This document shows, one piece after another, positions 6,212 to 20,620 of a DNA stretch of 64,000 nt (positions within the stretch are counted from its first letter, which is position 1; each line of letters starts with the position of its first letter). Location: IMG/VR virus record IMGVR_UViG_3300042484_002275, positions 62,001 to 126,000 of that record; one strand, written 5' to 3'. The notes beneath the pieces are model-generated. The model was not told the origin of the DNA. It searched no databases and was given only the letters and a program-made list of their open reading frames with translations. The stretch comes from a virus. The position numbers and the translations under genes were made by a program.

Positions 6212-7654
6212 ATGAAAGAAAAATTTCGTTATGTTAAGAAAGAAGATCGTAAAAAGATACTTCTGTTATGCGATGATATTAGGATGCATTCCGGTATCGC
6301 AACGATGGCTAGAGAGATTGTTGTAGGAACATCTCATCACTTTAACTGGATCAATCTAGGAGCTGCAATTAACCACCCCGAAGCAGGAAAAGGATTTGAC
6401 ATCTCAGGAGAGGTTAATAGGTTAACAGGGCTAGAAGATTCAGATGTAAAGGTATTGCCTAACAATGGTTATGGAGATGCTATGCAAATTAGAGCTTTAA
6501 TTGCACAAGAAAAGCCAGATGCTATTTTTATCTTTACAGATCCAAGGTACTGGGTATGGTTATTTGAAATAGAAAGAGAGATTAGAAATGAAATTCCTTT
6601 GATGTACTTAAACATTTGGGATGACTATCCAGCTCCTCTTTATAACAAACCGTACTACGAGTCATGTGATTTGTTAATGGCAATCTCAAAACAAACTAAA
6701 AATATTAATGAAATAGTTTTAGGAGAAGCAGTTGAGAATAAGATTTTAAAATATGTTCCTCATGGAATAAATGAAGAGCACTTCTTTCCAATGACCTCAG
6801 TAGATCAACTTGAGACTTTAGGTCAATTTAAAAAAGACTTATTTCAAGGAAAGGATATCGAATTCGTAGCATTCTTCAATTCAAGAAACATCAGAAGAAA
6901 ATCTCCAGGAGATGTAATTCTATCTTATAGAATGTTCTGTGATTTAATCGGAGAAGAGAAAGCTAAGAAATGTGCTTTAGTAATGCACACACAGGCTGTA
7001 GATGAAAACGGTACAGACCTTTATGCAGTAAGAGAAGCAATTTGTGATGAGAGTTATGTAAATGTATTCTTCTCACAAGAGAGATTAGATACTCCACAAA
7101 TTAATTTACTTTATAACATAGCTGATGTAGGATTGCTTATCACTTCAAATGAAGGATGGGGATTATCTCTAACTGAGACTATGATGGCAGGTAAAATGAT
7201 CATAGCCAACGTAACAGGCGGTATGCAAGATCAAATGAGATTTACAGATGAGAATGGTGAGTGGATTAACTTCACTCCTGACTTCCCTTCTAACCATAGA
7301 GGTACTTATAAAGAGCATGGAGAGTGGGCAGTGCCTGTCTATCCTTCAAACATCTCAATGGTAGGTTCAGTTCCAACTCCATACATCTTCGATGATAGGT
7401 GTGCACCAGAAGACGTAGCTAAAGCTTTAGAAGAGGTTTACAACATGGGGAAAGAAGAGAGAGATAGAAGAGGATTATTAGCTAGAGAATGGGTAACATC
7501 AGATGAATCAGGAATGTCAGCACGTCAAATGTGTACAAACGTTATTGATGCAATGGATGAGACATTTGAAAAGTTTACTCCAAGATCTAGATTTGACCTA
7601 TATAAAGTAACAGACAGACCAAAAAAATATATCACACATAAATTAATATACTAG
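6212..7654 (+). CDS. Glycosyltransferase, GT-B fold (GT4-like)
   Basis: A 480-residue enzyme expected to transfer a sugar from a nucleotide donor. The N-terminal Rossmann half has KILLLCDDIRMHSGIATMAREI. The C-terminal donor-binding half has the GT4-type segment ADVGLLITSNEGWGLSLTETMMAGKMIIANVTGG with the E-x7-E-like acidic residues. The acceptor is unknown. It starts 4 bases after the RHH gene and 2 bases separate it from a second GT-B enzyme, so the two probably act in series. Confidence 0.85.
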   Translation: MKEKFRYVKKEDRKKILLLCDDIRMHSGIATMAREIVVGTSHHFNWINLGAAINHPEAGKGFDISGEVNRLTGLEDSDVKVLPNNGYGDAMQIRALIAQEKPDAIFIFTDPRYWVWLFEIEREIRNEIPLMYLNIWDDYPAPLYNKPYYESCDLLMAISKQTKNINEIVLGEAVENKILKYVPHGINEEHFFPMTSVDQLETLGQFKKDLFQGKDIEFVAFFNSRNIRRKSPGDVILSYRMFCDLIGEEKAKKCALVMHTQAVDENGTDLYAVREAICDESYVNVFFSQERLDTPQINLLYNIADVGLLITSNEGWGLSLTETMMAGKMIIANVTGGMQDQMRFTDENGEWINFTPDFPSNHRGTYKEHGEWAVPVYPSNISMVGSVPTPYIFDDRCAPEDVAKALEEVYNMGKEERDRRGLLAREWVTSDESGMSARQMCTNVIDAMDETFEKFTPRSRFDLYKVTDRPKKYITHKLIY

Positions 7655-7656
7655 TT

Positions 7657-8943
7657 ATGAGTAAACCTACATTAGTAGTAAGCTGTCCAGTAGACACTTA
7701 CTCAGGATATGGAGCAAGAGCAAGAGACTTTGTACAATCAATTATCGATACAGATAAGTACGAAGTAAAGATCCTATCACAAAGATGGGGAGGTACTAGA
7801 TTTGGATATCTTAAAGATCATAAGAATGAATCTTTAGCCTCTAGAATTATACCACAACTAACACAACAGCCAGACATCTGGATTCAAATTACAGTACCGA
7901 ATGAATTTCAAAAGGTTGGTAAATACAATATTGGACTAACAGCAGGAATTGAAACTACAATCTGTGATCCTTCCTGGATTGAAGGATGTAACAGAATGGA
8001 CTTAGTATTAGTATCAGCACAACATGCTAAGAAAGTATTTGAAGATAGTAAATTCAATATGCAAGATTCAAATACAGGACAAGTAACAGGACAGTTAGCA
8101 CTTAGTACAAAGGTAGAAGTTCTATTTGAAGGAGCTGATATAGAGAAGTATGCACCATTGTCATGGCCAGTCACATTAGATCTTTCAACTATACCGGAAA
8201 TGTTCTGCTTCCTAACAGTAGGTCACTGGCTTCAGGGGTCTCTTGGAGAGGATAGAAAGAATATTGGATACACTATTAAAGCATTCTTAGAAACATTTAA
8301 GAATAAAAAAGATCAACCGGCACTTATTTTAAAAGTACAAGCAGGAGCAGGAACCTCTATCATGGATAGGGAAGCAGTGTTGGATAAAATTGATGCAATC
8401 AGAAAGACAGTAAAGGGAAAGTTACCAAACATTTACGTACTACATGGAGAAATGTCTGATGCTGAAGTAAATGAACTATACAACCACGGTAAGGTAAAGG
8501 CGATGATCTCTTTAACAAAAGGAGAAGGATTTGGAAGACCTCTACTAGAATTTAGTTTAATAAACAAACCAATCATAGCTTCAGGATGGTCAGGGCATAT
8601 TGACTTCCTTGATAATCGATATACAAAACAAATAGGAGGAACTCTTACAAACGTACATCCATCAGCAGCTGTAGACAAAATGATCTTACAAGAAAGCCAG
8701 TGGTTTACACCAGACGATGCTCTTGTAGGAAAAGCTCTTAAGGATGTATTTGAGGATTATAAACCATATAAGGAATTAGCCAAAAGACAGGGGTATAAGA
8801 GTAGAACTGAGTTCTCGTATGATAAGATGAGAGAGACGCTAGATACTCTTCTAACACAGTACATTCCTGAATTCCCTAAGCAAGTACAGTTAAAGTTACC
8901 TCAACTTAAGAAAATAGAACTACCAAAATTAACTAAAATATAA
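7657..8943 (+). CDS. Glycosyltransferase, GT-B fold (GT4-like)
   Basis: A 428-residue enzyme. TLVVSCPVDTYSGYGARARDF at the N-terminus and KVKAMISLTKGEGFGRPLLEFSLINKPIIASGWSGHIDFL in the C-terminal half match the donor site of GT4 enzymes (E-G-F-G-x-P-x-x-E). The C-terminal 30 residues are rich in Lys, Leu and Pro. Donor and acceptor are unknown. Confidence 0.85.
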   Translation: MSKPTLVVSCPVDTYSGYGARARDFVQSIIDTDKYEVKILSQRWGGTRFGYLKDHKNESLASRIIPQLTQQPDIWIQITVPNEFQKVGKYNIGLTAGIETTICDPSWIEGCNRMDLVLVSAQHAKKVFEDSKFNMQDSNTGQVTGQLALSTKVEVLFEGADIEKYAPLSWPVTLDLSTIPEMFCFLTVGHWLQGSLGEDRKNIGYTIKAFLETFKNKKDQPALILKVQAGAGTSIMDREAVLDKIDAIRKTVKGKLPNIYVLHGEMSDAEVNELYNHGKVKAMISLTKGEGFGRPLLEFSLINKPIIASGWSGHIDFLDNRYTKQIGGTLTNVHPSAAVDKMILQESQWFTPDDALVGKALKDVFEDYKPYKELAKRQGYKSRTEFSYDKMRETLDTLLTQYIPEFPKQVQLKLPQLKKIELPKLTKI

Positions 8944-9401
8944 TGGAAGAAAAAATGTCAATCTGTCCACATTGTGGAGGAAATGCTTGCTATGAACAAG
9001 CAGTAACAGAAGAAGTAACAACAAGCTTTTGCTTTGGATGCGGGTATTCAACTTCAACTCTAATGGTTGAAGGAGGAGATTTAGTAAACAAAACACTAGA
9101 AGCATCACCAGAACTTTATAAAGATCTTATGTTTGTAAGTGAAGATAAGAAAGTATGGTTCCCTTCTACAGTTACTCTTCCAAATAAAGGAATGGTATTC
9201 TTAGACGGAACAGCAAAAGAGAATTGGAGATGGGCAGCAGTAACCTCAGTAGAGATTCTAGAAGAAGAGAAAGCTAAATTTCCAAAAGGTCAGACAACTA
9301 AAATGGATATGAAAAATATCAAACATTTTGAGAAAGAAGATTTTATGGAAGCATTAGATGCTATCAAATTCTTTGATGTAGAAGTTGCTGAATCAGAATA
9401 A
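8943..9401 (+). CDS. Zinc-ribbon phage protein, 152 aa
   Basis: The N-terminus has two Cys pairs, ICPHCGGNACYE and FCFGCGYS, forming a zinc ribbon. A mixed domain follows with WFPSTVTLPNKGMVFLDG and WRWAAVTSVEIL. I recognise the general type from large phages but not a function. Translation may start at 8943 or at ATG 8955. A promoter lies in its 3' end. Confidence 0.75.
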   Translation: MEEKMSICPHCGGNACYEQAVTEEVTTSFCFGCGYSTSTLMVEGGDLVNKTLEASPELYKDLMFVSEDKKVWFPSTVTLPNKGMVFLDGTAKENWRWAAVTSVEILEEEKAKFPKGQTTKMDMKNIKHFEKEDFMEALDAIKFFDVEVAESE

Positions 9402-9415
9402 ATTTCTTATCTTAA
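9385..9415 (+). promoter_or_regulatory. Bacteroidetes-type promoter inside a gene end
   Basis: TTG at 9385 and TATCTTAA at 9408 are exactly 20 bases apart. The next ATG is at 9420, 4 bases beyond the -7 box, so the transcript would start at or just after the start codon. Confidence 0.4.
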
Positions 9416-9419
9416 TAGG

Positions 9420-10037
9420 ATGAAAATAAGTTATGCAATAACAGTTTGTAATGAGTTGGAGGAGATTAAACGCTTAGTGACTTTCCTCCTTCTTACTAAA
9501 CGTAAAGAAGACGAAGTAGTTATTTTATTTGATGAGAAGAACGGAACAGATGAAGTATTTGATTACATAGAGTCTCAAGTTTATCACTGTGAAGTATTCT
9601 GTGAAAAGTTTGAAGGACACTTTGCTGATTGGAAAAATGAACTTACATCACACTGTACAGGAAAGTACATCTTTCAAATAGATGCAGACGAACTTCCAAC
9701 TGAAGACCTTATTGTAAACCTTCCGTACATCTTAGAAGTTAATCAAGATGTAGATGTATTTCTTGTACCAAGAATTAATACAGTAGAAGGACTAACACTT
9801 CAACATATTCAGAAATGGGGATGGAATGTAAATGATAAAGGTTGGGTAAACTTCCCAGACTACCAATGGAGAATTTATAGAAATGATCCTAGTATAAAAT
9901 GGAAGAACAGAGTACACGAAGTACTAGAAGGATTTAAAACATCCACACTACTTCCAGCAGAGGAGATGTATTGCCTATATCATCCAAAGACAATCGACAG
10001 ACAAGAGAAACAGAATAATTATTACGATACATTATAA
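9420..10037 (+). CDS. Glycosyltransferase, GT-A fold (GT2-like)
   Basis: A 205-residue enzyme that opens ISYAITVCNELEEIKRLV, as family 2 enzymes do, and has IFQIDADELPTEDLI with the metal-binding D-x-D. A later VNFPDYQWRIYRNDPSIKWKNRVHE segment is typical of the WaaE/KdtX-like group. Short, but the catalytic core is present. Its acceptor is unknown. Confidence 0.8.
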   Translation: MKISYAITVCNELEEIKRLVTFLLLTKRKEDEVVILFDEKNGTDEVFDYIESQVYHCEVFCEKFEGHFADWKNELTSHCTGKYIFQIDADELPTEDLIVNLPYILEVNQDVDVFLVPRINTVEGLTLQHIQKWGWNVNDKGWVNFPDYQWRIYRNDPSIKWKNRVHEVLEGFKTSTLLPAEEMYCLYHPKTIDRQEKQNNYYDTL

Positions 10038-10044
10038 ATTAGTT

Positions 10045-11355
10045 ATGGATAGTATTTTAAATTTAGTACAAGAGTACATTACAAAGAAGGATAGCGAGAA
10101 GAAATGGGTAGCAGGAGAAGACTTAGTTCAATATGCTGGACCTTACTTCGATGGTCAAGAAGCTCAAGCGGTTGTTAGGACTATGCTTGAAGGATGGTTA
10201 GTTCTAGGAAAAGAAGGAGCAATGTTTGAAAGACGTTTCCCTAAAAAATTAGGGCAGAAGACTGGAGTCATTGTTAATAGCGGTTCAAGTGCTAATTTAC
10301 TAATGATGTTAGCCTTAACATCTAAGAGAGGAATGAACTTACCAAAAGGTACAAAAGTAATTACTCCAATAGCAGGATTCCCTGCAACACTTAGTCCTAC
10401 TATTCAAGTAGGCTTTACACCAATCTTTGTTGATATTGAATTAGAATCTCTTAATCTAGACTTAGATCAAGTAGAGCAAGCATGCATTGATCATCCGGAT
10501 GCAAAGATAATTACATTTGCTCACGTATTAGGTAATCCACCTAACATGGATCGATTAATGGAAATTGTAAACAAATATAATTTAATTCTATTAGAAGACT
10601 GTTGTGATGCTTTAGGAACGACATACGATGGTAAGATGTTAGGATCATTTGGTAAAATGTCTTCATGCTCATTCTATCCAGCACATCACATTACAATGGG
10701 TGAAGGAGGATTTGTAGCTTGTGGAGATGCTCATACAGAAAAGATACTAAGAAGTTTTAGAGACTGGGGTAGAGGGTGTTTCTGTCAAGGTAAAGCAAAT
10801 GCTTTAGAATGTGGTTCATGTGGTATTAGATTTAGTAATTGGTTACCAAGTCTTCCTAATGAGATCTTTGATCACAAATATACTTATGAAGAGATTGGAT
10901 ACAATTTAAAACCTACAGAGTTACAAGCAGCAATGGGTAATGTTCAGTTAGGTAAGTTAGAAGAGATTGGAGTACTGAGAAGAAGAAATCATAAAGCAAT
11001 TGTTGACATCTTTAAGAAGTATGAAGATAAATTTATCCTTCCTAAAGCTACAGATAAATCAGATCCAGATTGGTTTGCAGTAGCATTAACATTAAGAGAC
11101 GGAGTAGGATTTACAAGATCTGAATTCTGTCAATACTTAGAAGCAAATAAGATTCAAACAAGACCTTACTTTGCAGGTAACATTATGTTACAGCCAGGCT
11201 ATTCACATTTAATTGATTCAAAAGAAGTTATTGAGAAATATCCAGTATCAAGAAAAGTAACAACAGATACTTTCTTCTTAGGATGCTCACCAATCATTAC
11301 ATTGGAACAAATAGAATACATTGGAACAATTGTAGATAAATTCTTCAGTAAATAG
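10045..11355 (+). CDS. rfbH: RfbH-like NDP-4-keto-6-deoxyhexose 3-dehydratase
   Basis: A 436-residue member of the DegT/DnrJ/EryC1/StrS aminotransferase fold. The segment SFYPAHHITMGEGG has His215 where aminotransferases have the PLP-binding lysine, which is the hallmark of RfbH (E1) and ColD 3-dehydratases. A Cys cluster (GRGCFCQGKANALECGSCG) fits the [2Fe-2S] site of E1. The enzyme removes the 3-hydroxyl of a 4-keto-6-deoxy sugar nucleotide, leading to 3,6-dideoxy sugars. The E3-type reductase partner is not in the window. Confidence 0.9.
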   Translation: MDSILNLVQEYITKKDSEKKWVAGEDLVQYAGPYFDGQEAQAVVRTMLEGWLVLGKEGAMFERRFPKKLGQKTGVIVNSGSSANLLMMLALTSKRGMNLPKGTKVITPIAGFPATLSPTIQVGFTPIFVDIELESLNLDLDQVEQACIDHPDAKIITFAHVLGNPPNMDRLMEIVNKYNLILLEDCCDALGTTYDGKMLGSFGKMSSCSFYPAHHITMGEGGFVACGDAHTEKILRSFRDWGRGCFCQGKANALECGSCGIRFSNWLPSLPNEIFDHKYTYEEIGYNLKPTELQAAMGNVQLGKLEEIGVLRRRNHKAIVDIFKKYEDKFILPKATDKSDPDWFAVALTLRDGVGFTRSEFCQYLEANKIQTRPYFAGNIMLQPGYSHLIDSKEVIEKYPVSRKVTTDTFFLGCSPIITLEQIEYIGTIVDKFFSK

Positions 11356-11356
11356 T

Positions 11357-12202
11357 ATGAAAAAATTTGTAATAAGTACACATGGGTTTGATATGGGAAT
11401 AGGAGGCTTAAAGGTTTTACATAAACTTTGTCACCTTCTAAATGAAAATGGATACGACGCATATCTAATACCAGTAAATTTTAATGAACCATTCGGCATG
11501 TATGAGGGGTATAATACCAAAATGATTACACAAGACATACTAGATAATCTGGAAGAGGCCATAGTAGTGTACCCTGAAAGCTGGAACGGTAACTACCTCA
11601 ATGCACCAAACGTAGTTAGGTGGATGATAGGACCTCCTACCAAGGATGTTGCTGCTACATGGTCTAGCAAGGACCTATGGTTTTGGTATATTCCTTTTTA
11701 TAAGTCTTCTGAGTTTACTAAGCATTTAGAAAATCAACTGTATATAGGAGAGCAGCATAGGGATATCTTTTTTAATAGAAACTTAGAAAGGACTATTACT
11801 AGTTGGACTTTAAGAAAAGCTCAAGGGTTAGTACAAGAAGTAAATTACAAACACCCTAAGGATAGTTTGTTTCTTCCGTATCATGCAGCAGGAGATTTAG
11901 CCTCTCTTTCTGATATATTTAATAGATCTAAAGCATTCTACTGCTACGATACATATACCTACTTAACAATACAGAGCCTACTATGCGGTACAGAGGCCAT
12001 AGTGCTTCCAAATAGTTGGACCGAGAAAGAACATTTTCTAAAAGGATTTGCACTAAGCAAGTATGTAGCCTATGGAATAGACGATCTACCCAGAGCCAGA
12101 AGTATCCGTAATGAATTTTTAGAAGAAGTAGAAGAGATTGAAACATTAACAATAAAACAGTTACATGAATTTACAGAAAAATGCTCTACCTACTTTAGCT
12201 GA
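11357..12202 (+). CDS. Glycosyltransferase-like protein (GT-B)
   Basis: A 281-residue protein. FVISTHGFDMGIGGLKVLHKLCHLL resembles the N-terminal half of GT-B transferases, and the C-terminal half has YDTYTYLTIQSLLCGTEAIVLPNSW, as in donor-binding domains. It is weaker than the first two GT-B genes and could be a divergent polysaccharide transferase. It overlaps the next gene by 38 bases. Confidence 0.6.
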   Translation: MKKFVISTHGFDMGIGGLKVLHKLCHLLNENGYDAYLIPVNFNEPFGMYEGYNTKMITQDILDNLEEAIVVYPESWNGNYLNAPNVVRWMIGPPTKDVAATWSSKDLWFWYIPFYKSSEFTKHLENQLYIGEQHRDIFFNRNLERTITSWTLRKAQGLVQEVNYKHPKDSLFLPYHAAGDLASLSDIFNRSKAFYCYDTYTYLTIQSLLCGTEAIVLPNSWTEKEHFLKGFALSKYVAYGIDDLPRARSIRNEFLEEVEEIETLTIKQLHEFTEKCSTYFS

Positions 12203-13193
12203 GTTTAGCTTCTTGATCGTAACTGCAGCAAGAGATGAGAATAGACTAAGAGAAGCCTACAGGTCAATAAGGCTACAATACCCGGAAAATGAAATAGTAG
12301 TAGTATATGATAACACTGGTGTTTTATTACTAAATAGAGAAGATATAAACCTACTGGAGATTCCAACTTCGGAAAGAGTGTATGTTAGTAGGGGATATAA
12401 TATAGCATTAAAAAACTGCTCTAAGCCATATTTTGTATTTCTACATGATGATACTTTTATTGCTCCTAACTTTCTAGAAAACATATTACCCCATATAAGC
12501 GAAAGTCAGTTTTGTAACTTCACTGCAATAGAGCCTCCAGTATTTGGCAACATCGATTCAGCAACAGCACCAATTAGGGATTTTGGTAGAAGCTTAGATA
12601 CGTTTGTAGTAGAGAACTTTAATAAATATACAGAAAAGTATGTACAGACCTTAGAACACAGAACAGTAGAATCTCCTTTTGGAGGATTTTTTATGGTGGG
12701 AAGTACTAAGAGTATATTAAGTATAGGAGGATTTGATGAAACCTTTCAACCCTATTTCTTTGAAGACAGTGACTTAATGGTACGGCTACACCTAGCAAAC
12801 TTTAGGTTTATACAGGTACTAGATAGTTTAGTATATCATATGGTAAGCCTAACCTCTAGAGGAACTCCGGAGAGTAGGGTAGCTGAGAGTATCACTCATA
12901 AGTTGTTTGTTAAGAAATGGAAGGTAGAATTCAATTACTTCAGACAGTATACAATGTCAGCAGGTATTCCATATAAGAAGATACCAGTCTTAATTAAACA
13001 CACAAACTGTAGTGAATCATTACAAGAGTACCTATCCTTAATAAGTGAACCTAGTACAGTAGAGCTAATAGTAGACGGACTGCAAATATCTCAAGAAGAT
13101 GTAGGATATATACAATCATTACCGTATATTATACAGGATACAATACTATCAGGTAGCTACCAACTGGGAAGTATGCAACTAAATTTTAACTAA
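12165..13193 (+). CDS. Glycosyltransferase, GT2 family
   Basis: A 342-residue GT-A enzyme. It has ENEIVVVYDNTG, PYFVFLHDDTFIAPNFLENIL with the D-D metal motif, FGGFFMVGSTKSILSIGGFDE and FFEDSDLMVRLHLANFRF with the E-D-x-D catalytic region. The last 80 residues form an extra domain of unknown role. The start inside the previous gene is the only ATG that keeps the first strand (FSFLIVTAARDENRL). Confidence 0.82.
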   Translation: MNLQKNALPTLAEFSFLIVTAARDENRLREAYRSIRLQYPENEIVVVYDNTGVLLLNREDINLLEIPTSERVYVSRGYNIALKNCSKPYFVFLHDDTFIAPNFLENILPHISESQFCNFTAIEPPVFGNIDSATAPIRDFGRSLDTFVVENFNKYTEKYVQTLEHRTVESPFGGFFMVGSTKSILSIGGFDETFQPYFFEDSDLMVRLHLANFRFIQVLDSLVYHMVSLTSRGTPESRVAESITHKLFVKKWKVEFNYFRQYTMSAGIPYKKIPVLIKHTNCSESLQEYLSLISEPSTVELIVDGLQISQEDVGYIQSLPYIIQDTILSGSYQLGSMQLNFN

Positions 13194-13220
13194 ATAACAT
13201 AAAAAGATAATTTTATAAAG

Positions 13221-14177
13221 ATGAAAAAAGTAGTTTACGTTACCGGTTGTTTAGGATTTATTGGATCCTACGTAACAAGGAAGTGTTTAGATAGAGGATG
13301 GTACGTTAAGGGAGTTGATAAGAAGACCTATGCAGCTAATAAAGACTTATTAAAAGAGTTTAAAGAGTATGAAAACTTTTCATTTGTAGATTGTGATATA
13401 AATGATTTGAAGTTCCTATATGACTGTGACTATATAATTAATACAGCAGCTGAGACTCATGTAGGAAACTCTATAATGGATTCGGATGTATTTGTACATT
13501 CAAATGTAAATGGAGTTCACAATCTACTAGAGTTAATAAAAAATCATAGAGGAGAGAATGCTACTAAGCCTACACTCCTTCACTTTAGTACAGACGAAGT
13601 TTATGGAGATATCGAAGAAGGAGAGCATATCGAGACTGACATACTTAAACCATCTAATCCATACTCAGCTACTAAAGCTGCAGCAGATATGCTAATAACA
13701 GCTTGGGCAAGAACTTACAAACTTCCTTATATTATAATAAGGCCAACAAACAATTACGGAATAGGGCAGTATGTAGAGAAGTTAATACCTAAAGCCTGTA
13801 AGTACTTACGACTTGGTAAAAAGATTCCTCTACACAATAACGGTACTCCAATTAGAAACTGGCTCCATGCCCAGGATACAGCTGAGGCTGTAATTAGAAT
13901 TATTGAATCAGGAGTGCAGAATGAAATCTATAATATTTGTGGAGGATTTGAGCAAACTAATTTGGATACTATTAAAAAAGTTCTTATATTGTACTATAAG
14001 GATTTAGGAGTAGACATAGAAGCTAACTTAGACCTAAAATGTAATAGACAAGGACAAGATGTTAGGTATGCCTTAAATGATGATAAATTAAGAGCATTAG
14101 GATGGAAACCTACAATTGACTTTGACTTGGAATTAAAAAATGTTGTAGAATATTATAGAGAAAAATTCATATGGTAA
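13221..14177 (+). CDS. rfbB: RmlB-like NDP-glucose 4,6-dehydratase
   Basis: A 318-residue extended short-chain dehydrogenase. It has the NAD motif TGCLGFIGSYV, the catalytic STDEVYGD and YSATKAAAD motifs, RPTNNYGIGQYVEKLIPK, HNNGTPIRNWLHAQD and a C-terminal GQDVRYALNDDKLRALGWKP, all matching dTDP-glucose 4,6-dehydratase. It would make the NDP-4-keto-6-deoxyhexose used by the RfbH-like enzyme encoded upstream. Whether the nucleotide is dTDP or CDP cannot be told from sequence. It overlaps the TPP enzyme gene by 7 bases. Confidence 0.87.
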   Translation: MKKVVYVTGCLGFIGSYVTRKCLDRGWYVKGVDKKTYAANKDLLKEFKEYENFSFVDCDINDLKFLYDCDYIINTAAETHVGNSIMDSDVFVHSNVNGVHNLLELIKNHRGENATKPTLLHFSTDEVYGDIEEGEHIETDILKPSNPYSATKAAADMLITAWARTYKLPYIIIRPTNNYGIGQYVEKLIPKACKYLRLGKKIPLHNNGTPIRNWLHAQDTAEAVIRIIESGVQNEIYNICGGFEQTNLDTIKKVLILYYKDLGVDIEANLDLKCNRQGQDVRYALNDDKLRALGWKPTIDFDLELKNVVEYYREKFIW

Positions 14178-15925
14178 AAGTAAGTGATGTAATCGTTCAA
14201 TACCTTAAAGCTAATAAGATAGAGATTGTATTTGGAATAATTGGCTCAGCTAATTCTCACATATTCAATTCGATATTAGAAGAAGGAAGTATCAAATTGG
14301 TATCGGTACATCATGAACAAGCCGCTGTAATGGCTATGGGAGCTTATTACCGTTCAACCGGAAAGATGGCTGTTGCATTAGTAACAGCAGGAGGAGGAGC
14401 ATCAAATGCTTCAACAGGAATTCTTTCCAACTGGGCTGACTCCATTCCAGGAATAACTATCTCAGGACAAGAACAATCCTACTACTTAGCTGAATATAAA
14501 GATATGAGAATGTTTGGAGTACAAGGTTATGATGCAACTAAAGCATATGAAAACTGTACTAAAATGTCTTATGTACTTACAGAAAATACCTTACATTCAA
14601 TAATGCCTTTTGCATTTGCTTTAACACAAGAAGGTAGACCAGGGCCAGTATTCCTGGAAGTACCTTTCGATGTTCAAAGTAAAATGATAGAAGAAGTAGA
14701 AATAAAAGTAACTCCAATTGTAGAAATATACCCTGAGACTTCTTCTGATACAGACTATATCCTCTCTGCACTTTCACAAGCAGAGCGACCAGTTATACTA
14801 GGAGGTCACGGCGTTAAGCTAGCTAAAGCAGAAGAATTATTTAAACAATTTGTAGGAGACTATAACATACCAACAGTATTAAGCTGGTCAGCAGTAGACT
14901 TACTTGATGATAATGATCCTAACTATTTCGGAAGACCAGGAGTACAGGGTCAGAGAGCAGCTAACTTTATAGTACAGAACTCTGATTTACTAATTGTATT
15001 AGGAAGCAGACTATCATTACTTCAGACAGGCTACAAAAGAGAAGACTTTGCTCCATATGCTAATATCATTCATGTTGATGTAGATGATACAGAAATTAAT
15101 AAGTTCAACGGAAAGAATATAAAAGCAGATGTAGGAGAATTACTTACAAGTTTAAATTCTAAATGGAAAGCTGAGATTGAAATAGAGGAATGGATACAAT
15201 ACTGTAATCAAATTAAAGAAAAGTATCCTTTAGTAATGCCTGAGCATTTAGCAGACCCTACCAATTCATATACATTTATTGATAAATTCTCACAAAAAGT
15301 ATCGGACAATTATACAATCGTTACTGATATGGGAACAGCTTTATTAAGTGGATTCTATGGATGGAGAATTAAACCTAACCAAAAGATGTTTACCTCTCTA
15401 GGATTAGGAGAGATGGGATATGGATTAGCAGCAGCAGTTGGAGCTGGATTTGGAGAAAGACCAGTGATGTGTTTAAATTGTGATGGAGGTATGATGATGA
15501 ACATACAAGAGTTACAAACAATTAAGACACATAACCTTCCAGTAAAGATTATCATATTCAACAATGACGGATACTTAATGATCAAACATACTCAGAATAT
15601 GTTATTTAAAGGAGCACGTACTTGTGTTGACAAAGAGACAGGAGTAACACTTCCTGATTATAAAAAAGTAGCACATGCATTTGATTTTGAATACTTCACA
15701 GAAGATAACGTAGATGACTTCTTAGCATTTGAAGGCCAGGCTATCATGGAAGTATTTATGGATCCAAATCAAGAATTTATTCCTAAGGTAAGAGGAATGA
15801 AGCTAGAAGATAGTACAATCCAAGCAGGACTATTAGAGGAGATGTCTCCACTTCTTCCGTTAGAAGAAATAGAACAAGCAATGGTTGCAGGAATTAACCA
15901 AAGAAGTAAAACAGTTGTAAGATGA
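14171..15925 (+). CDS. Acetolactate-synthase-like TPP enzyme (YerE-like candidate)
   Basis: A 584-residue thiamine-pyrophosphate enzyme with all three domains. VHHEQAAVMAMGAYYRSTG carries the catalytic Glu near residue 48, the central domain has the LLDDNDPNYFGRPGVQG segment, and NCDGGMMMNIQELQTI...FNNDGYLMIKH is the TPP-binding motif near residue 436. Acetolactate synthases decarboxylate pyruvate and transfer the two-carbon unit to a keto group. In yersiniose synthesis YerE does this on a CDP-3,6-dideoxy-4-keto sugar. Placement between RmlB-, RfbH-, MhpF- and MhpE-like genes suggests a sugar acceptor here; that is inference. Confidence 0.85.
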   Translation: MVKVSDVIVQYLKANKIEIVFGIIGSANSHIFNSILEEGSIKLVSVHHEQAAVMAMGAYYRSTGKMAVALVTAGGGASNASTGILSNWADSIPGITISGQEQSYYLAEYKDMRMFGVQGYDATKAYENCTKMSYVLTENTLHSIMPFAFALTQEGRPGPVFLEVPFDVQSKMIEEVEIKVTPIVEIYPETSSDTDYILSALSQAERPVILGGHGVKLAKAEELFKQFVGDYNIPTVLSWSAVDLLDDNDPNYFGRPGVQGQRAANFIVQNSDLLIVLGSRLSLLQTGYKREDFAPYANIIHVDVDDTEINKFNGKNIKADVGELLTSLNSKWKAEIEIEEWIQYCNQIKEKYPLVMPEHLADPTNSYTFIDKFSQKVSDNYTIVTDMGTALLSGFYGWRIKPNQKMFTSLGLGEMGYGLAAAVGAGFGERPVMCLNCDGGMMMNIQELQTIKTHNLPVKIIIFNNDGYLMIKHTQNMLFKGARTCVDKETGVTLPDYKKVAHAFDFEYFTEDNVDDFLAFEGQAIMEVFMDPNQEFIPKVRGMKLEDSTIQAGLLEEMSPLLPLEEIEQAMVAGINQRSKTVVR

Positions 15926-16779
15926 AAATAAAAGTAGCAATTATTGGTACAGGTAATATCGGAACAGATTTATTACTCAAAGCCTTAAAGACAGACTTCA
16001 TGGATGTAGTAGCATTCGTAGGTCGTAGATTAGATTCAGATGGAATGCTAACAGCTAAGAAATACAATGTACTGATATCAGATCAAGGTATTCAATACTT
16101 TATTGACAATCCAAAGTGTTGTGATGTAGTTTACGATTGTACCTCAGCAGCAGATGCTATTGAACATGCTAAGATATTTAAAGACCAGGAAATAAAAGTA
16201 ATTGACCTAACACCAGCCAAGGTAGGAGATATGTGCGTACCAGATGTTAACTCTGAGATTATATTGACAGATGATAATGTAAATATGATTACTTGCGGAG
16301 GACAAGCTTCAATGCCTATGCTTCATTTACTATCAAAAGAGTGCATAGGATTAGAATACATCGAAGTAGTATCACAGATTGCATCTAAGAGTGCAGGAAT
16401 GGCTACAAGAATAAACGTAGACAATTACATTCAAACAACTCAGAAAGCTATAACAAAGTTTACTGGTTGTTCAAATAACAAAGTAATACTAAACCTTAAC
16501 CCTGCTGAACCCTGTGTTGATATGCAGACAACTATCTTTATCAAAGCAAAGAAAGTTAATTTTGAAAATCTAACAGAGAAGGTCTTAGAAAAAATTGAAG
16601 AGTTAAGAACATACATTCCATATTACGAAATGGTGCTTCCTCCAACTATGAACGATAATGGTGTAGTTGTAATGAGTATTAAAGTAAGAGGTACAGGAGA
16701 CTATCTTCCAGCCTATGCTGGTAACCTGGATATTATTAACTGTGCAGCAATTAAAGTAACAGAAAGATTGGTAAAATGA
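15922..16779 (+). CDS. mhpF: Acetaldehyde dehydrogenase (acylating), MhpF-like
   Basis: A 285-residue NAD-dependent enzyme. It has the Rossmann motif IIGTGNIGTDLL, the segment VYDCTSAADA, the catalytic cysteine in ITCGGQASMPMLHLL and a C-terminal GNLDIINCAA. The family oxidises acetaldehyde to acetyl-CoA and works in a complex with the aldolase encoded immediately downstream, whose start overlaps this gene's stop. Finding this pair in a phage beside dideoxy-sugar genes is unusual. Confidence 0.9.
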   Translation: MKIKVAIIGTGNIGTDLLLKALKTDFMDVVAFVGRRLDSDGMLTAKKYNVLISDQGIQYFIDNPKCCDVVYDCTSAADAIEHAKIFKDQEIKVIDLTPAKVGDMCVPDVNSEIILTDDNVNMITCGGQASMPMLHLLSKECIGLEYIEVVSQIASKSAGMATRINVDNYIQTTQKAITKFTGCSNNKVILNLNPAEPCVDMQTTIFIKAKKVNFENLTEKVLEKIEELRTYIPYYEMVLPPTMNDNGVVVMSIKVRGTGDYLPAYAGNLDIINCAAIKVTERLVK

Positions 16780-17774
16780 GAAAAGTAATCATAACAGATT
16801 CAAGTCTTAGAGATGGAAATCATAGTGTTAAGCATACTATAAGTTTAGATAGTATAGCAAGGTATTGTCAATTTGCTGATAGAGCTGGCGTACCAATTGT
16901 AGAGGTAGGTCACGGAAATGGATTAGCAGCATCCTCTTTACTTGTAGGTAAGTCTGTTAATACAGATGAAGAGATGCTAACAACTGCTAGAAAGAATCTA
17001 AAGAATTCTAAACTAGGAATTCATATGATACCAGGACTAGCAACACTAGAACATACTAGGAGAGCAATTGATCTAGGAGTAGATGTAGTGAGAGTGGCAA
17101 CACATTGTACAGAAGCAACACTATCTAAATCTCATATTGAAGCACTAGCAAAAGCAAATGTAGAAGTGTTCGGAGTATTGATGATGAGTGCTTTAATTAC
17201 TCCTCTAGAATTATTAGAGCAAGCTAAAATAATGGAAGGGTATGGAGCTAAGGCTATTATTATAATGGACTCTACAGGAACATATCTACCATTTGATGTA
17301 CAGCAGAGAATTGCCCTACTGACAAGCAATCTAAATATTGCAGTAGGATTTCATGCTCATAACAACTTAGGATGTGCAGTAGCCAATTCCCTAACAGCAG
17401 TAGAATTTGGAGCAGACTATATTGACGGATGTATTAGAGGATTTGGAGCCGGAGCAGGAAATGCACCACTAGAAATACTTATACCAGTATTAGAGCAAAC
17501 AGGCTTTCAAGTAGGAATAAACTTCCAGGAGACGATCAAAGAAGCTGATAATGTAATGAACTACTTAGTTCCATCAGCTCCTATCACAACTCCAATTAAC
17601 ATACTAACCGGACTTAAGAAACTATTCTCAGGATTTGAAAAGCCTATCGTAAGTGCTTCTAAGTTGTATGGAATAGAATATTCATCTCTTATCTTTGAAT
17701 TAGGTAATAGAAAGTTGGTAGCCGGGCAAGAAGATCTTATCTTAGAGGTAGCACAGAAGCTAAAGAAGAGATAG
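16776..17774 (+). CDS. mhpE: 4-hydroxy-2-oxovalerate aldolase-like, MhpE/DmpG family
   Basis: A 332-residue HMG-like TIM barrel. SSLRDGNHSVKH near the N-terminus matches the LRDGMH motif, VPIVEVGHGNGLAASSLL matches the substrate region, and FHAHNNLGCAVANSL supplies the metal-binding His-x-His. It also has the ADYIDGCIRGFGAGAGNAPLE motif. The family splits 4-hydroxy-2-oxoacids into pyruvate and an aldehyde, or condenses them in reverse, and channels the aldehyde to its MhpF partner. Here its substrate is probably linked to sugar synthesis. Confidence 0.9.
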   Translation: MRKVIITDSSLRDGNHSVKHTISLDSIARYCQFADRAGVPIVEVGHGNGLAASSLLVGKSVNTDEEMLTTARKNLKNSKLGIHMIPGLATLEHTRRAIDLGVDVVRVATHCTEATLSKSHIEALAKANVEVFGVLMMSALITPLELLEQAKIMEGYGAKAIIIMDSTGTYLPFDVQQRIALLTSNLNIAVGFHAHNNLGCAVANSLTAVEFGADYIDGCIRGFGAGAGNAPLEILIPVLEQTGFQVGINFQETIKEADNVMNYLVPSAPITTPINILTGLKKLFSGFEKPIVSASKLYGIEYSSLIFELGNRKLVAGQEDLILEVAQKLKKR

Positions 17775-18686
17775 ATGAACATATTAATTACAGGAGGGAA
17801 TGGATTCTTAGGATCTAATATTGTTAGAAAGCTGTTAAAGGAAGGACATAGTGTCTACTTATTTTCAAACAATACAAATAACATAGAGGACATACTTCCT
17901 CAAGTTTTATTTGACTACAGTAGTACTAATTCACTACCTATGTTTAAGAAGAAAATAGAGACATTTTCACCAGACATAGTAATACATTGTGGATGGAGTG
18001 GAGGAAATAGTTACGCAGATACTAATAGTATGGATCAGTTTTATGAAAATGTAGATCCAAGTATCTCTCTACTACAACTACTAAGTAAGCTCAAGAAGAA
18101 GCCTAAGTTTGTAGGTTTTGGAAGTTTTGCAGAGTATGGAGAGATGTTCAATCCAGTAAGTGAAACAGTCCAAGAAGTTCCTACAAACCTATATGGACTA
18201 TCAAAGTATACTTTTAAGAAGTATAGTGAAATGATATGCAACCAACACAGTATAGAATGGGTATGGATAAGGCCCTGCTACGTTTACGGACCAGGAGATG
18301 TAAGCACAAGACTTCTTCCTAGTATAATTAAGAAGTTCTTAAGGAATGAAGCAGTAATACTTGATGAGTGTACTTCTACTGTAGATTATATTTATATAGA
18401 TGATTTTGTTAATTCAATTTATTTTCTTATATTAACAAAACATACAGGAGTGTACAACATATGCTCAGGAAAACAATACAAGATAAGAGATATAGTTGAG
18501 CAAGTTCATAAACAAATTGAGAGTAGTAGTACTATTGAATTTAGTGCTAATCTAAAAAGAACCTCTACATACTCTTATGTATGTGGGGACAGACGAAAGA
18601 TTGATGCTGTTGCAAATATTCCAACTCAGATATCTTTAAATGAAGGATTAGTTAAAACAATAACATATTATAAAGTAAGAAAATGA
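17775..18686 (+). CDS. NAD(P)-dependent epimerase/reductase (extended SDR)
   Basis: A 303-residue SDR with the nucleotide motif ITGGNGFLGSNIV, FVGFGSFAEYGE and the YGLSKYTFKK catalytic pair. It lacks the TDEVYGD dehydratase motif, so it is more likely a 4-keto reductase or epimerase acting late in the sugar pathway, the step carried out by YerF in yersiniose synthesis. Its start follows the aldolase stop directly. Confidence 0.82.
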   Translation: MNILITGGNGFLGSNIVRKLLKEGHSVYLFSNNTNNIEDILPQVLFDYSSTNSLPMFKKKIETFSPDIVIHCGWSGGNSYADTNSMDQFYENVDPSISLLQLLSKLKKKPKFVGFGSFAEYGEMFNPVSETVQEVPTNLYGLSKYTFKKYSEMICNQHSIEWVWIRPCYVYGPGDVSTRLLPSIIKKFLRNEAVILDECTSTVDYIYIDDFVNSIYFLILTKHTGVYNICSGKQYKIRDIVEQVHKQIESSSTIEFSANLKRTSTYSYVCGDRRKIDAVANIPTQISLNEGLVKTITYYKVRK

Positions 18687-19324
18687 AAAACGAAGTTGTA
18701 GTAAAAGAAGGAGGCTGGATTTGGCCTAAGAAGGATGAGAGAAGTTGGCAAGGTCAAATAAAACAAAAGGAACTAGCTCAATACATACTTCCCTATGTAG
18801 TGAAGAATGATGTAATGATACAAGCAGGTGGTAATTGTGGATTCATTCTAAGTACCTTTGTTCCCTACTTTAACAACATCTATACATTTGAACCAGATCC
18901 AATAAACTTTTATTGCTTGAATCAGAATGTTACAGCACCAAGTGTTATTAAGATGCAATGTTGCTTAGGAAAAGAAAGTACACCAGTAGCTGTACAACAT
19001 CTACAAAGAGGTATAGGAGAGGGAATAGACATAGGGGGAGTACATGTTAGTGGAGTAGGGTTTACTCCTACTATTGTTATCGACAAATTAAACCTACAGG
19101 CATGTGACTTAATTCAACTAGACATAGAAGGGTATGAACTCAATGCACTACTGGGTGCAGTAGAGACTATTAAGAAATATAAACCTGTACTATGTATAGA
19201 GTTCTGTGAAAACTGGTTAAATAGGTATGAAGCTACGTCAGATAGTGTTGAAACTCTTTTAGTTGAATTAGGATACAAACATGTAGAATCGTACCAAGCA
19301 GATAGAATTTACATAACACAATAG
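18683..19324 (+). CDS. FkbM-family methyltransferase
   Basis: A 213-residue SAM-dependent methyltransferase. It has MIQAGGNCGFILSTFVPYF (SAM loop), NIYTFEPDPINFYCLNQNV, and the FkbM signature IQLDIEGYELNALLGA followed by KPVLCIEF. Such enzymes usually O-methylate sugars. It overlaps the SDR by 4 bases and precedes a glycosyltransferase, so it probably modifies the cluster's glycan. Confidence 0.88.
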   Translation: MKNEVVVKEGGWIWPKKDERSWQGQIKQKELAQYILPYVVKNDVMIQAGGNCGFILSTFVPYFNNIYTFEPDPINFYCLNQNVTAPSVIKMQCCLGKESTPVAVQHLQRGIGEGIDIGGVHVSGVGFTPTIVIDKLNLQACDLIQLDIEGYELNALLGAVETIKKYKPVLCIEFCENWLNRYEATSDSVETLLVELGYKHVESYQADRIYITQ

Positions 19325-19342
19325 GTTACATATATACATACA

Positions 19343-20620
19343 ATGGAAAATTCAATTAGTTTTTGCATCAATACAGCAGTAGATGAACTACCTTATTTAA
19401 AACTACTAATGAAGTCGTTAAAAGAAAATCTTAAGTACGACCACCACGAGGTAATTGTGTTTGTTGATTCTGATAATCAAAAAACCTTCGAATGGCTGAC
19501 TACTCAAAAGTTAGAGTTTAAGAATCTAAAAATACTTAAAAACATACTCCCAGTATGTTATGGCCCTATTAGGAATATAAATGAAATGTTTAAATTTGCT
19601 TCTCATGAAATAGTTTCTTACCTACAGTCTGATATGGTTGTTTCTAGAAACTATGATGAGTATCTCTTAAAGCATATTAAACCTAATACGATACTATCTA
19701 GCACTAGAATTGAACCACCACTACATGGACCAGGTCCTGAGAAGCATACTGTGAACTTTGGACTAACTCCCTCTGAGTTTGATTATGAGGGGTTTTTAAA
19801 CTACTGTGACATATGTAGAGAAGATAAAACAACAAGTTACTATTTTGCACCATTTACTTTATATAGAGAGATTTGGAACACTATAGGAGGGCAAGACAAC
19901 ACCTTTAGACGGTCAAGAGATGACTCTGATATTTTAAATAGGTTTATACTTTCAGGAGTAGAGATTGTTCAAACATGGGAAGCACTGGTATACCATTTTA
20001 CTTGTACTTCTAGTAGAGGACCGGGCTGGCATGAGCCAAGTAATACAAAGGCACAGGAAAAGTTACAACTCCAAGCAAGAGCAGATAAGGTAGAACTTAC
20101 TAGAATATTTAGAAAGTGGGGAGAATTTAGCCATGGACATCCAACACCGTACTACTATAATATAGTCTCAGAAATTAATATAGATATAGATATAGGTAAC
20201 TTAGAGTTATTTAAAAACGTTGAGATGTTTTTTATAAAAAACTACATAACTTCTAAAAAACTATATAACGAGTTTATAAATGAGAATGAACATCTATATG
20301 CTAATATACTTTACAAGTACTCTCAAGAACAGTGGGAGGAGTACAAGTACATGTGCAACATAGAGAGATTAGAGGATAGAGTTTGTATAGGAGAACCAGA
20401 AGGAGATGTGGTAGTTTCATTTAACCTTAGTAGTATTAACCAAAATACATTTAATAATGTACTAAGTAAGTTACAACACATAATACACGAAGCAGAACCA
20501 GGTGATTATGAATTCGAAGGATTTACTTTCTCAATAAAGAACAAAGAGAATATTATAGAGACTAAACTTAAAGTAAACAATCCTGATATAAAACCAGAAC
20601 ATCTATATAAGGTATACTAG
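19343..20620 (+). CDS. Glycosyltransferase, GT2-like with C-terminal extension
   Basis: A 425-residue protein. The N-terminal GT-A domain shows ISFCINTAVDELPYLKLLMKSL, VIVFVDSDNQ, HEIVSYLQSDMVVSRNYDEYLLKHI with a D-x-x-V metal region, and FRRSRDDSDILNRFILSG. From about residue 300 there is an extra helical/mixed domain of unknown role. It ends the glycan cluster. Confidence 0.78.
   Translation: MENSISFCINTAVDELPYLKLLMKSLKENLKYDHHEVIVFVDSDNQKTFEWLTTQKLEFKNLKILKNILPVCYGPIRNINEMFKFASHEIVSYLQSDMVVSRNYDEYLLKHIKPNTILSSTRIEPPLHGPGPEKHTVNFGLTPSEFDYEGFLNYCDICREDKTTSYYFAPFTLYREIWNTIGGQDNTFRRSRDDSDILNRFILSGVEIVQTWEALVYHFTCTSSRGPGWHEPSNTKAQEKLQLQARADKVELTRIFRKWGEFSHGHPTPYYYNIVSEINIDIDIGNLELFKNVEMFFIKNYITSKKLYNEFINENEHLYANILYKYSQEQWEEYKYMCNIERLEDRVCIGEPEGDVVVSFNLSSINQNTFNNVLSKLQHIIHEAEPGDYEFEGFTFSIKNKENIIETKLKVNNPDIKPEHLYKVY

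Follow-up and report, generated by a model that had tools for sequence, protein, structure and literature searches.

In the literature found, erwiniose, caryophyllose and other branched higher sugars belong to bacterial envelopes, and a 2025 review of the thiamine diphosphate (ThDP)-dependent enzymes concerned names viruses only as unexplored. Here, a block of phage genes is compared with the closest described bacterial systems. The block occupies positions 10,045 to 18,686 of a 64,000-nucleotide window (i.e. the whole stretch of DNA analysed), which was taken from a 150.7 kb and possibly incomplete virus record (IMG/VR IMGVR_UViG_3300042484_002275), and it encodes relatives of the 3-dehydratase RfbH, the 4,6-dehydratase RmlB, a YerE-like ThDP enzyme, the acetaldehyde dehydrogenase MhpF, the aldolase MhpE and a short-chain dehydrogenase/reductase (SDR).

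In Pectobacterium atrosepticum, ErwE joins hydroxy-functionalised alpha-keto acids, e.g. 4-hydroxy-2-oxopentanoate, to cytidine diphosphate (CDP)-4-keto-3,6-dideoxyglucose to form erwiniose; it refuses pyruvate and also accepts C4 and C6 hydroxy-oxo acids (PMC12247030). The chemistry predicted for the phage block is alike, in that a YerE-like ThDP enzyme would decarboxylate a 4-hydroxy-2-oxo acid and join it to a 4-keto-3,6-dideoxy sugar, although the erwiniose pathway is bacterial and CDP-based and the likeness is set by chemistry and not by the ErwE sequence. Yersiniose A synthesis by YerE and YerF similarly combines ThDP-dependent carboligation on a 3,6-dideoxy-4-keto sugar with subsequent SDR reduction, but its branch consists of two carbons derived from pyruvate and no aldolase pair is involved. 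With the catabolic DmpG-DmpF and BphI-BphJ pairs, the phage MhpE and MhpF share both protein families, catalytic residues and the communication domain; they differ in carrying His and Phe in place of Leu87 and Tyr290 (BphI numbering) and in being proposed to act in the synthetic direction.

The closest non-viral relatives of the phage ThDP enzyme (38-45% identity) are encoded by JanthE-type clusters of Duganella, Rugamonas, Mucilaginibacter, Flavobacterium and Pseudomonas. JanthE itself (structure 8rph) takes 4-hydroxy-2-oxovalerate as donor and also pyruvate (PMC12188165). These clusters resemble the phage block in their linked MhpF and MhpE genes, His/Phe aldolase pocket, RfbH and SDRs, and JanthE carries the same CDG motif. 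They differ in encoding the nucleotidyltransferase RfbF, the dehydratase RfbG, an RfbI-like reductase and a flippase-like gene, as identified with family models in Mucilaginibacter locus L064 (RfbF, 420 bits, cut-off 300; RfbG, 475 bits, cut-off 278) and by eye in Pseudomonas locus L057 (loci are designated here by L numbers), whereas the phage lacks these genes and encodes an RmlB-type dehydratase instead. The genome-contig scan that yielded JanthE-type clusters included no Pectobacterium among the 80 kept.

Against this background, the phage block is read, with a probability of about 0.74, as a predicted pathway to a nucleotide-linked, 4-C-branched, erwiniose-type deoxy sugar with a four-carbon branch. 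That it represents a variant of the ErwE/JanthE type of branched-sugar pathway is proposed with high confidence, and the C4 branch with moderate confidence. As deduced from the genes present and their order, from their conservation and family placement, and from active-site residues, RmlB would convert a host-made nucleoside diphosphate (NDP)-glucose, probably deoxythymidine diphosphate (dTDP)-glucose, to a 4-keto-6-deoxy sugar, from which RfbH would strip the 3-hydroxyl group, a host reductant feeding its Fe-S cluster. MhpF would convert acetyl-CoA to acetaldehyde and hand it to MhpE, which would combine it with pyruvate to yield 4-hydroxy-2-oxovalerate, probably with (4R) configuration. After decarboxylating this donor, the ThDP enzyme would place a 3-hydroxybutanoyl unit onto C4 of the keto sugar, the SDR encoded after MhpE would reduce the new ketone to give a ten-carbon sugar, and phage glycosyltransferases would use this sugar within the cytosol, the likeliest acceptor being a virion component.

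Relationships of the ThDP enzyme and conservation of the gene block

The closest solved relative of the ThDP enzyme was JanthE (504 bits), followed by 5ahk (255 bits), which we take to be a Pseudomonas YerE-type enzyme, and Escherichia coli acetohydroxyacid synthase (AHAS) I (230 bits). The CDG ThDP-binding motif of JanthE was present in the window enzyme and in most viral copies, and the catalytic Glu49 was invariant among the viral copies. In a quickly built tree of 91 proteins, with Shimodaira-Hasegawa-like approximate likelihood-ratio test (SH-aLRT) values as the only support measure, 32 viral enzymes formed one clade (SH-aLRT 100), which grouped with a bacterial clade (99) holding JanthE together with every MhpF-MhpE-linked bacterial enzyme included in the tree. 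In this sister bacterial group, the ThDP gene lies beside MhpF-MhpE in O-antigen-like clusters. AHAS and 5ahk fell outside the joint grouping, the latter on a separate branch with the enzyme encoded at L057:8202. The window enzyme is proposed to be a carboligase with a ketone as acceptor and an alpha-keto acid as donor, and its grouping with JanthE lends support to the core idea of an earlier sequence-only reading of this DNA, namely phage-encoded extension of a 3,6-dideoxy-4-keto sugar by a YerE-like ThDP enzyme.

An identity as housekeeping AHAS (IlvB/AlsS), which that reading had named as the outcome contrary to it, was rejected, as the best AHAS model reached 335 bits against a cut-off of 738 and the tree placed the enzyme with JanthE and apart from AHAS. 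Generic models nevertheless label the enzyme acetolactate synthase-like, and MhpE-MhpF pairs usually belong to aromatic degradation, both of which would fit a role in central metabolism, with an acetolactate synthase and an acetaldehyde/pyruvate shunt redirecting host carbon flow. In view of the AHAS scores and tree, of surroundings made up of sugar-nucleotide and glycosyltransferase genes, and of an aldolase without the catabolic Leu/Tyr pocket, such a role is considered very improbable.

A scan of IMG/VR for relatives of the ThDP enzyme identified 45 loci, corresponding to 33 clusters at 95% nucleotide identity; two of these loci (L001 and L014) were 100% identical to the window in this region. 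RmlB was located directly before the ThDP gene, with a gap of at most 13 bp, in 40 of 42 viral loci, a ThDP-MhpF-MhpE run was present in 35, and the SDR gene came next after MhpE in 33 of these 35, contig ends cutting the other two; because of this recurrence, chance is excluded as the cause of the gene order. Ratios of nonsynonymous to synonymous substitution (dN/dS) of 0.01-0.16 for RfbH, the core block and the neighbouring FkbM gene, each compared with L002, are indicative of strong purifying selection. The window record was shown to represent a T4-like tailed phage, encoding the T4-type major capsid protein Gp23, tail sheath, portal, baseplate wedge and ribonucleotide reductase; a portal search aimed at showing a single viral lineage gave matches only in four long records. 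Searches of phage record collections (tblastn) returned matches of about 33% identity or less, resembling bacterial AHAS in mixed records, and no cultured phage with the module, while literature on viral occurrence of the pathway yielded a single unplaced 4-hydroxy-2-oxovalerate aldolase from groundwater viromes (PMC13303688). Known bacterial enzymes account for most of the module; what appears new, as far as we are aware, is its occurrence as an old, conserved viral module.

In the Pseudomonas cluster at L057:8202-11815, two adjacent ThDP carboligases, one 71% identical to 5ahk and the other JanthE-like, were observed together with MhpF-MhpE, and this cluster may make two branched sugars.

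The aldolase pair and the nature of the donor

Members of the MhpE family join pyruvate and an aldehyde to form a 4-hydroxy-2-oxo acid, and members of the MhpF family can provide acetaldehyde from acetyl-CoA. Both phage proteins exceeded the NCBIfam cut-offs for acetaldehyde dehydrogenase (TIGR03215; 322 bits, cut-off 282) and 4-hydroxy-2-oxovalerate aldolase (TIGR03217; 342 bits, cut-off 286), respectively. The sequence-only reading had seen no obvious place for this pair and had taken a two-carbon unit from pyruvate; instead, the branch most likely comprises four carbons, i.e. a 3-hydroxybutanoyl unit from 4-hydroxy-2-oxovalerate, and the pair likely makes that donor, as expected from the ErwE/erwiniose pathway (PMC12247030).

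A yersiniose-like route, in which a two-carbon acetyl unit derives from pyruvate and MhpE-MhpF merely supply or recycle pyruvate and acetaldehyde, would agree with the acceptance of pyruvate by JanthE (PMC12188165) and with an SDR that could be a YerF-like ketoreductase. It is judged quite unlikely, as pyruvate requires no aldolase, yet the pair is locked beside the ThDP gene in the 35 viral loci and shares the locus with 22 of the bacterial enzymes included in the tree. Moreover, 5ahk, presumably of YerE type, lies on another branch, and another pyruvate-aldolase family replaces the pair in three loci.

In these three loci (L027, L028 and L032), an HpcH/HpaI-family cassette occupies the slot after RmlB-ThDP in place of MhpF-MhpE. 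The cassette consists of a pair of HpcH/HpaI-family genes, a gene for a double [4Fe-4S] protein and a short open reading frame (ORF) of HAD-like appearance, joined in L027 by a flavin reductase gene (families were assigned on L028 and, for the reductase, on L027). The ThDP enzymes of the three loci form one sister clade, in which the CDG motif was not found. Because a different pyruvate-aldolase family replaces MhpF-MhpE, an aldol-derived keto acid is suggested as the common donor type, with which the name of caryophyllose (3,6,10-trideoxy-4-C-...) is consistent. In L021 and L038, MhpF and MhpE are 78-84% identical to those of the window (MhpE 84%) and the ThDP enzyme just 49%, suggestive of recombination inside the module. 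Tentatively, and at odds we put well below even, T4-like phages would possess an old, monophyletic, dTDP-based module for ten-carbon C4-branched virion sugars, the branch having been diversified by swapping MhpF-MhpE and HpcH/HpaI cassettes behind a fixed RmlB-ThDP core.

The HpcH/HpaI variants also point to other donors, and a longer or hydroxylated aldehyde in place of acetaldehyde, so that the product would carry a chain like that of caryophyllose or be some other higher sugar, would be consistent with an aldehyde pocket unlike that of catabolic aldolases and with the use of C4 and C6 hydroxy-oxo acids by ErwE (PMC12247030). This alternative is regarded as unlikely, since MhpF scores above the acetaldehyde dehydrogenase cut-off and MhpE possesses the communication domain, which makes channelled acetaldehyde the simplest donor, and since the position of BphI Leu89 is occupied by Ile in the window aldolase and not by a smaller residue such as Ala.

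Mapping on DmpG (1nvm) revealed that the window aldolase retains the catalytic Arg, Asp and His, the metal-binding His and the DmpG communication domain. Its His83 and Phe284 correspond to Leu88 and Tyr291 of DmpG and to Leu87 and Tyr290 of BphI, the numbering of which is that of DmpG minus one, in agreement with the residues at these positions. His/Phe at BphI positions 87/290 was found in all 64 ThDP-linked aldolases (34 viral and 30 bacterial, some bacterial genes having entered twice via re-fetched loci), and in five more from clusters whose ThDP gene falls outside the short fetched locus. Conversely, Leu/Tyr (27) or Ile/Tyr (1) was found in the 28 aldolases that have no ThDP gene next to them, some of which are additional copies encoded by these same Rugamonas and Pseudomonas genomes. 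Since the unlinked and viral sets are each confined to one side of a branch of the aldolase tree, the His/Phe change arose once and is a clade marker with known functional meaning, not a set of 64 independent events. Two small (~1.5 Mb) genomes of a Gammaproteobacteria sample (L152 and L153) were also observed to encode ThDP-MhpF-MhpE with a His/Phe aldolase.

Wild-type BphI is (4S)-specific, its Y290F variant is without stereocontrol and L87N/Y290F yields only the (4R) product (PMC3962088). By analogy with this engineered pair, to which Leu87His/Tyr290Phe is close, the MhpE product is, with moderate confidence, probably (4R). From the D-gulo name of erwiniose, we derive the R configuration for C7, which would require a (4R) donor. 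The signature renders the stereochemistry of these sugars directly testable and provides a sequence marker that parts biosynthetic from catabolic MhpE-like aldolases in annotation; for biocatalysis, the loci offer candidate (4R)-directed aldolases and putative new ketone-accepting ThDP enzymes.

Nucleotide carrier, 3-deoxygenation and likely target

The RmlB-like protein scored 299 bits against TIGR01181 (dTDP-glucose 4,6-dehydratase; cut-off 365) and 71 bits against TIGR02622 (CDP-glucose enzyme), and its ten best solved relatives were all dTDP-glucose dehydratases. The TDE-Y-K catalytic motifs are present, with STDEVYG in the phage protein versus TTDKVY or TTDKCY in bacterial RfbG. Of the supply genes of the CDP-based erwiniose pathway, none was found besides RfbH: the possibly incomplete record gave no match to NTP_transferase (RfbF-like nucleotidyltransferase) or NAD_binding_1 (RfbI-like reductase), and the dehydratase was RmlB-type, with no RfbG-type enzyme found. 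For these reasons, namely the RmlB-type dehydratase and the lack of RfbF and RfbG matches, dTDP appears, with moderate confidence, a likelier carrier than the CDP of the sequence-only reading.

RfbH scored 452 bits against NF011936 (cut-off 423) and aligned with E1 (3bcx), the His220 of which corresponds to the catalytic His214 here, replacing the aminotransferase Lys. It also contains the four cysteines of the [2Fe-2S] cluster, and His and Cys are retained in viral orthologues. Of 35 viral records, 31 encode a pyridoxal phosphate (PLP) enzyme related to RfbH. Wherever the active site of such an enzyme was read, it held His instead of Lys; copies of the RfbH type combine this His with the Fe-S cysteines, whereas copies of a more distant type lack the cysteines. 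Because of this, 3-deoxygenation is predicted to be usual in viral loci, with a responsible gene that varies. In L019, L022, L025, L041 and L133-L135, the place of RfbH is taken by another His-type family of PLP dehydratases (SFYASHVITAGG) that lacks the Fe-S cysteines.

The closest solved relative of the SDR was a GDP-6-deoxy-4-hexulose reductase (2pk3), Tyr140 and Lys144 being invariant and the dehydratase Asp absent. The operon proteins are without membrane segments, save one hydrophobic stretch in the aldolase, which belongs to a soluble family. Because membrane segments are all but absent and several glycosyltransferases are encoded around the block, the sugar may, with low confidence, be used in the cytosol on a virion part rather than exported to the host envelope. 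A conserved phage module of this kind would place phages among the makers of the most elaborate known sugars, possibly to glycosylate their virions.

Several points weigh against the proposed branched-sugar pathway. Its product is a predicted one, the phages are not cultured, and the likeness to ErwE lies in predicted chemistry. The RmlB-like protein falls below its equivalog cut-off (299 versus 365 bits), the record yielded no electron donor for RfbH, and RfbH not only lies apart from the core but, in some loci, is absent or has a paralogue in its stead. Furthermore, the association of His/Phe with the ThDP gene represents one evolutionary event, and His was not among the residues tested in BphI (PMC3962088).

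Hypermodification of DNA via a deoxycytidine monophosphate hydroxymethylase was rejected, as the PF00303 protein keeps the PFNIA motif of a true thymidylate synthase and nothing points to hydroxymethyl-cytosine, the one DNA modification that this check covered. A 426-amino-acid thymidylate synthase at L129:7799-9079 (G000:C1:47799-49079) was observed to have in-frame insertions that split the family match, with catalytic motifs intact, and G022 encodes one of similar long form.

Layout of the locus and neighbouring genes

The six enzymes named in the sequence-only reading are present and were correctly read, all on the plus strand (Table 1). Their description as lying side by side holds for the core from RmlB to SDR, in which RmlB/ThDP overlap by 7 bases and ThDP/MhpF and MhpF/MhpE by 4 each, and the SDR gene abuts MhpE, but not for RfbH, which is set 1.9 kb upstream by two intervening ORFs. 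The operon extends in both directions into glycosyltransferase and FkbM genes, FkbM overlapping the SDR gene at 18683.

Table 1. Coordinates of the phage locus (positions in the window) and of the alternative cassettes (positions in the loci named)
Feature	Coordinates	Strand	Basis or remark
GT1 glycosyltransferase	6212..7654	+	PF00534; phrog_2170
Upstream glycosyltransferases and small ORF	7657..10037	+	GT1-like 7657-8943; zinc-finger-like ORF 8943-9401; GT2 9420-10037; Pfam
RfbH-type (E1) NDP-4-keto-6-deoxyglucose 3-dehydratase	10045..11355	+	NF011936; alignment with 3bcx
ORF, glycosyltransferase-like by eye only	11357..12202	+	Homologues in several viral loci; no match in Pfam or PHROG
GT2 glycosyltransferase	12165..13193	+	PF00535
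RmlB-type NDP-glucose 4,6-dehydratase, first gene of conserved core	13221..14177	+	TIGR01181; STDEVYG / YSATK motifs
YerE-like (JanthE-type) ThDP carboligase (predicted), CDG motif	14171..15925	+	JanthE match, tree
MhpF/DmpF acylating acetaldehyde dehydrogenase	15922..16779	+	TIGR03215
MhpE/DmpG 4-hydroxy-2-oxovalerate aldolase, DmpG communication domain	16776..17774	+	TIGR03217; PF07836
SDR, proposed ketoreductase for new branch carbonyl	17775..18686	+	Relative 2pk3
FkbM methyltransferase, co-transcribed neighbour	18683..19324	+	PF05050
GT2 glycosyltransferase, candidate user of sugar	19343..20620	+	PF00535
HpcH/HpaI-family cassette	L027:11779-15475
HpcH/HpaI-family cassette	L028:11764-14745
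HpcH/HpaI-family cassette	L032:11655-14636

Further upstream, at positions 50-1510 of the window, a phage-encoded GroEL chaperonin was observed.

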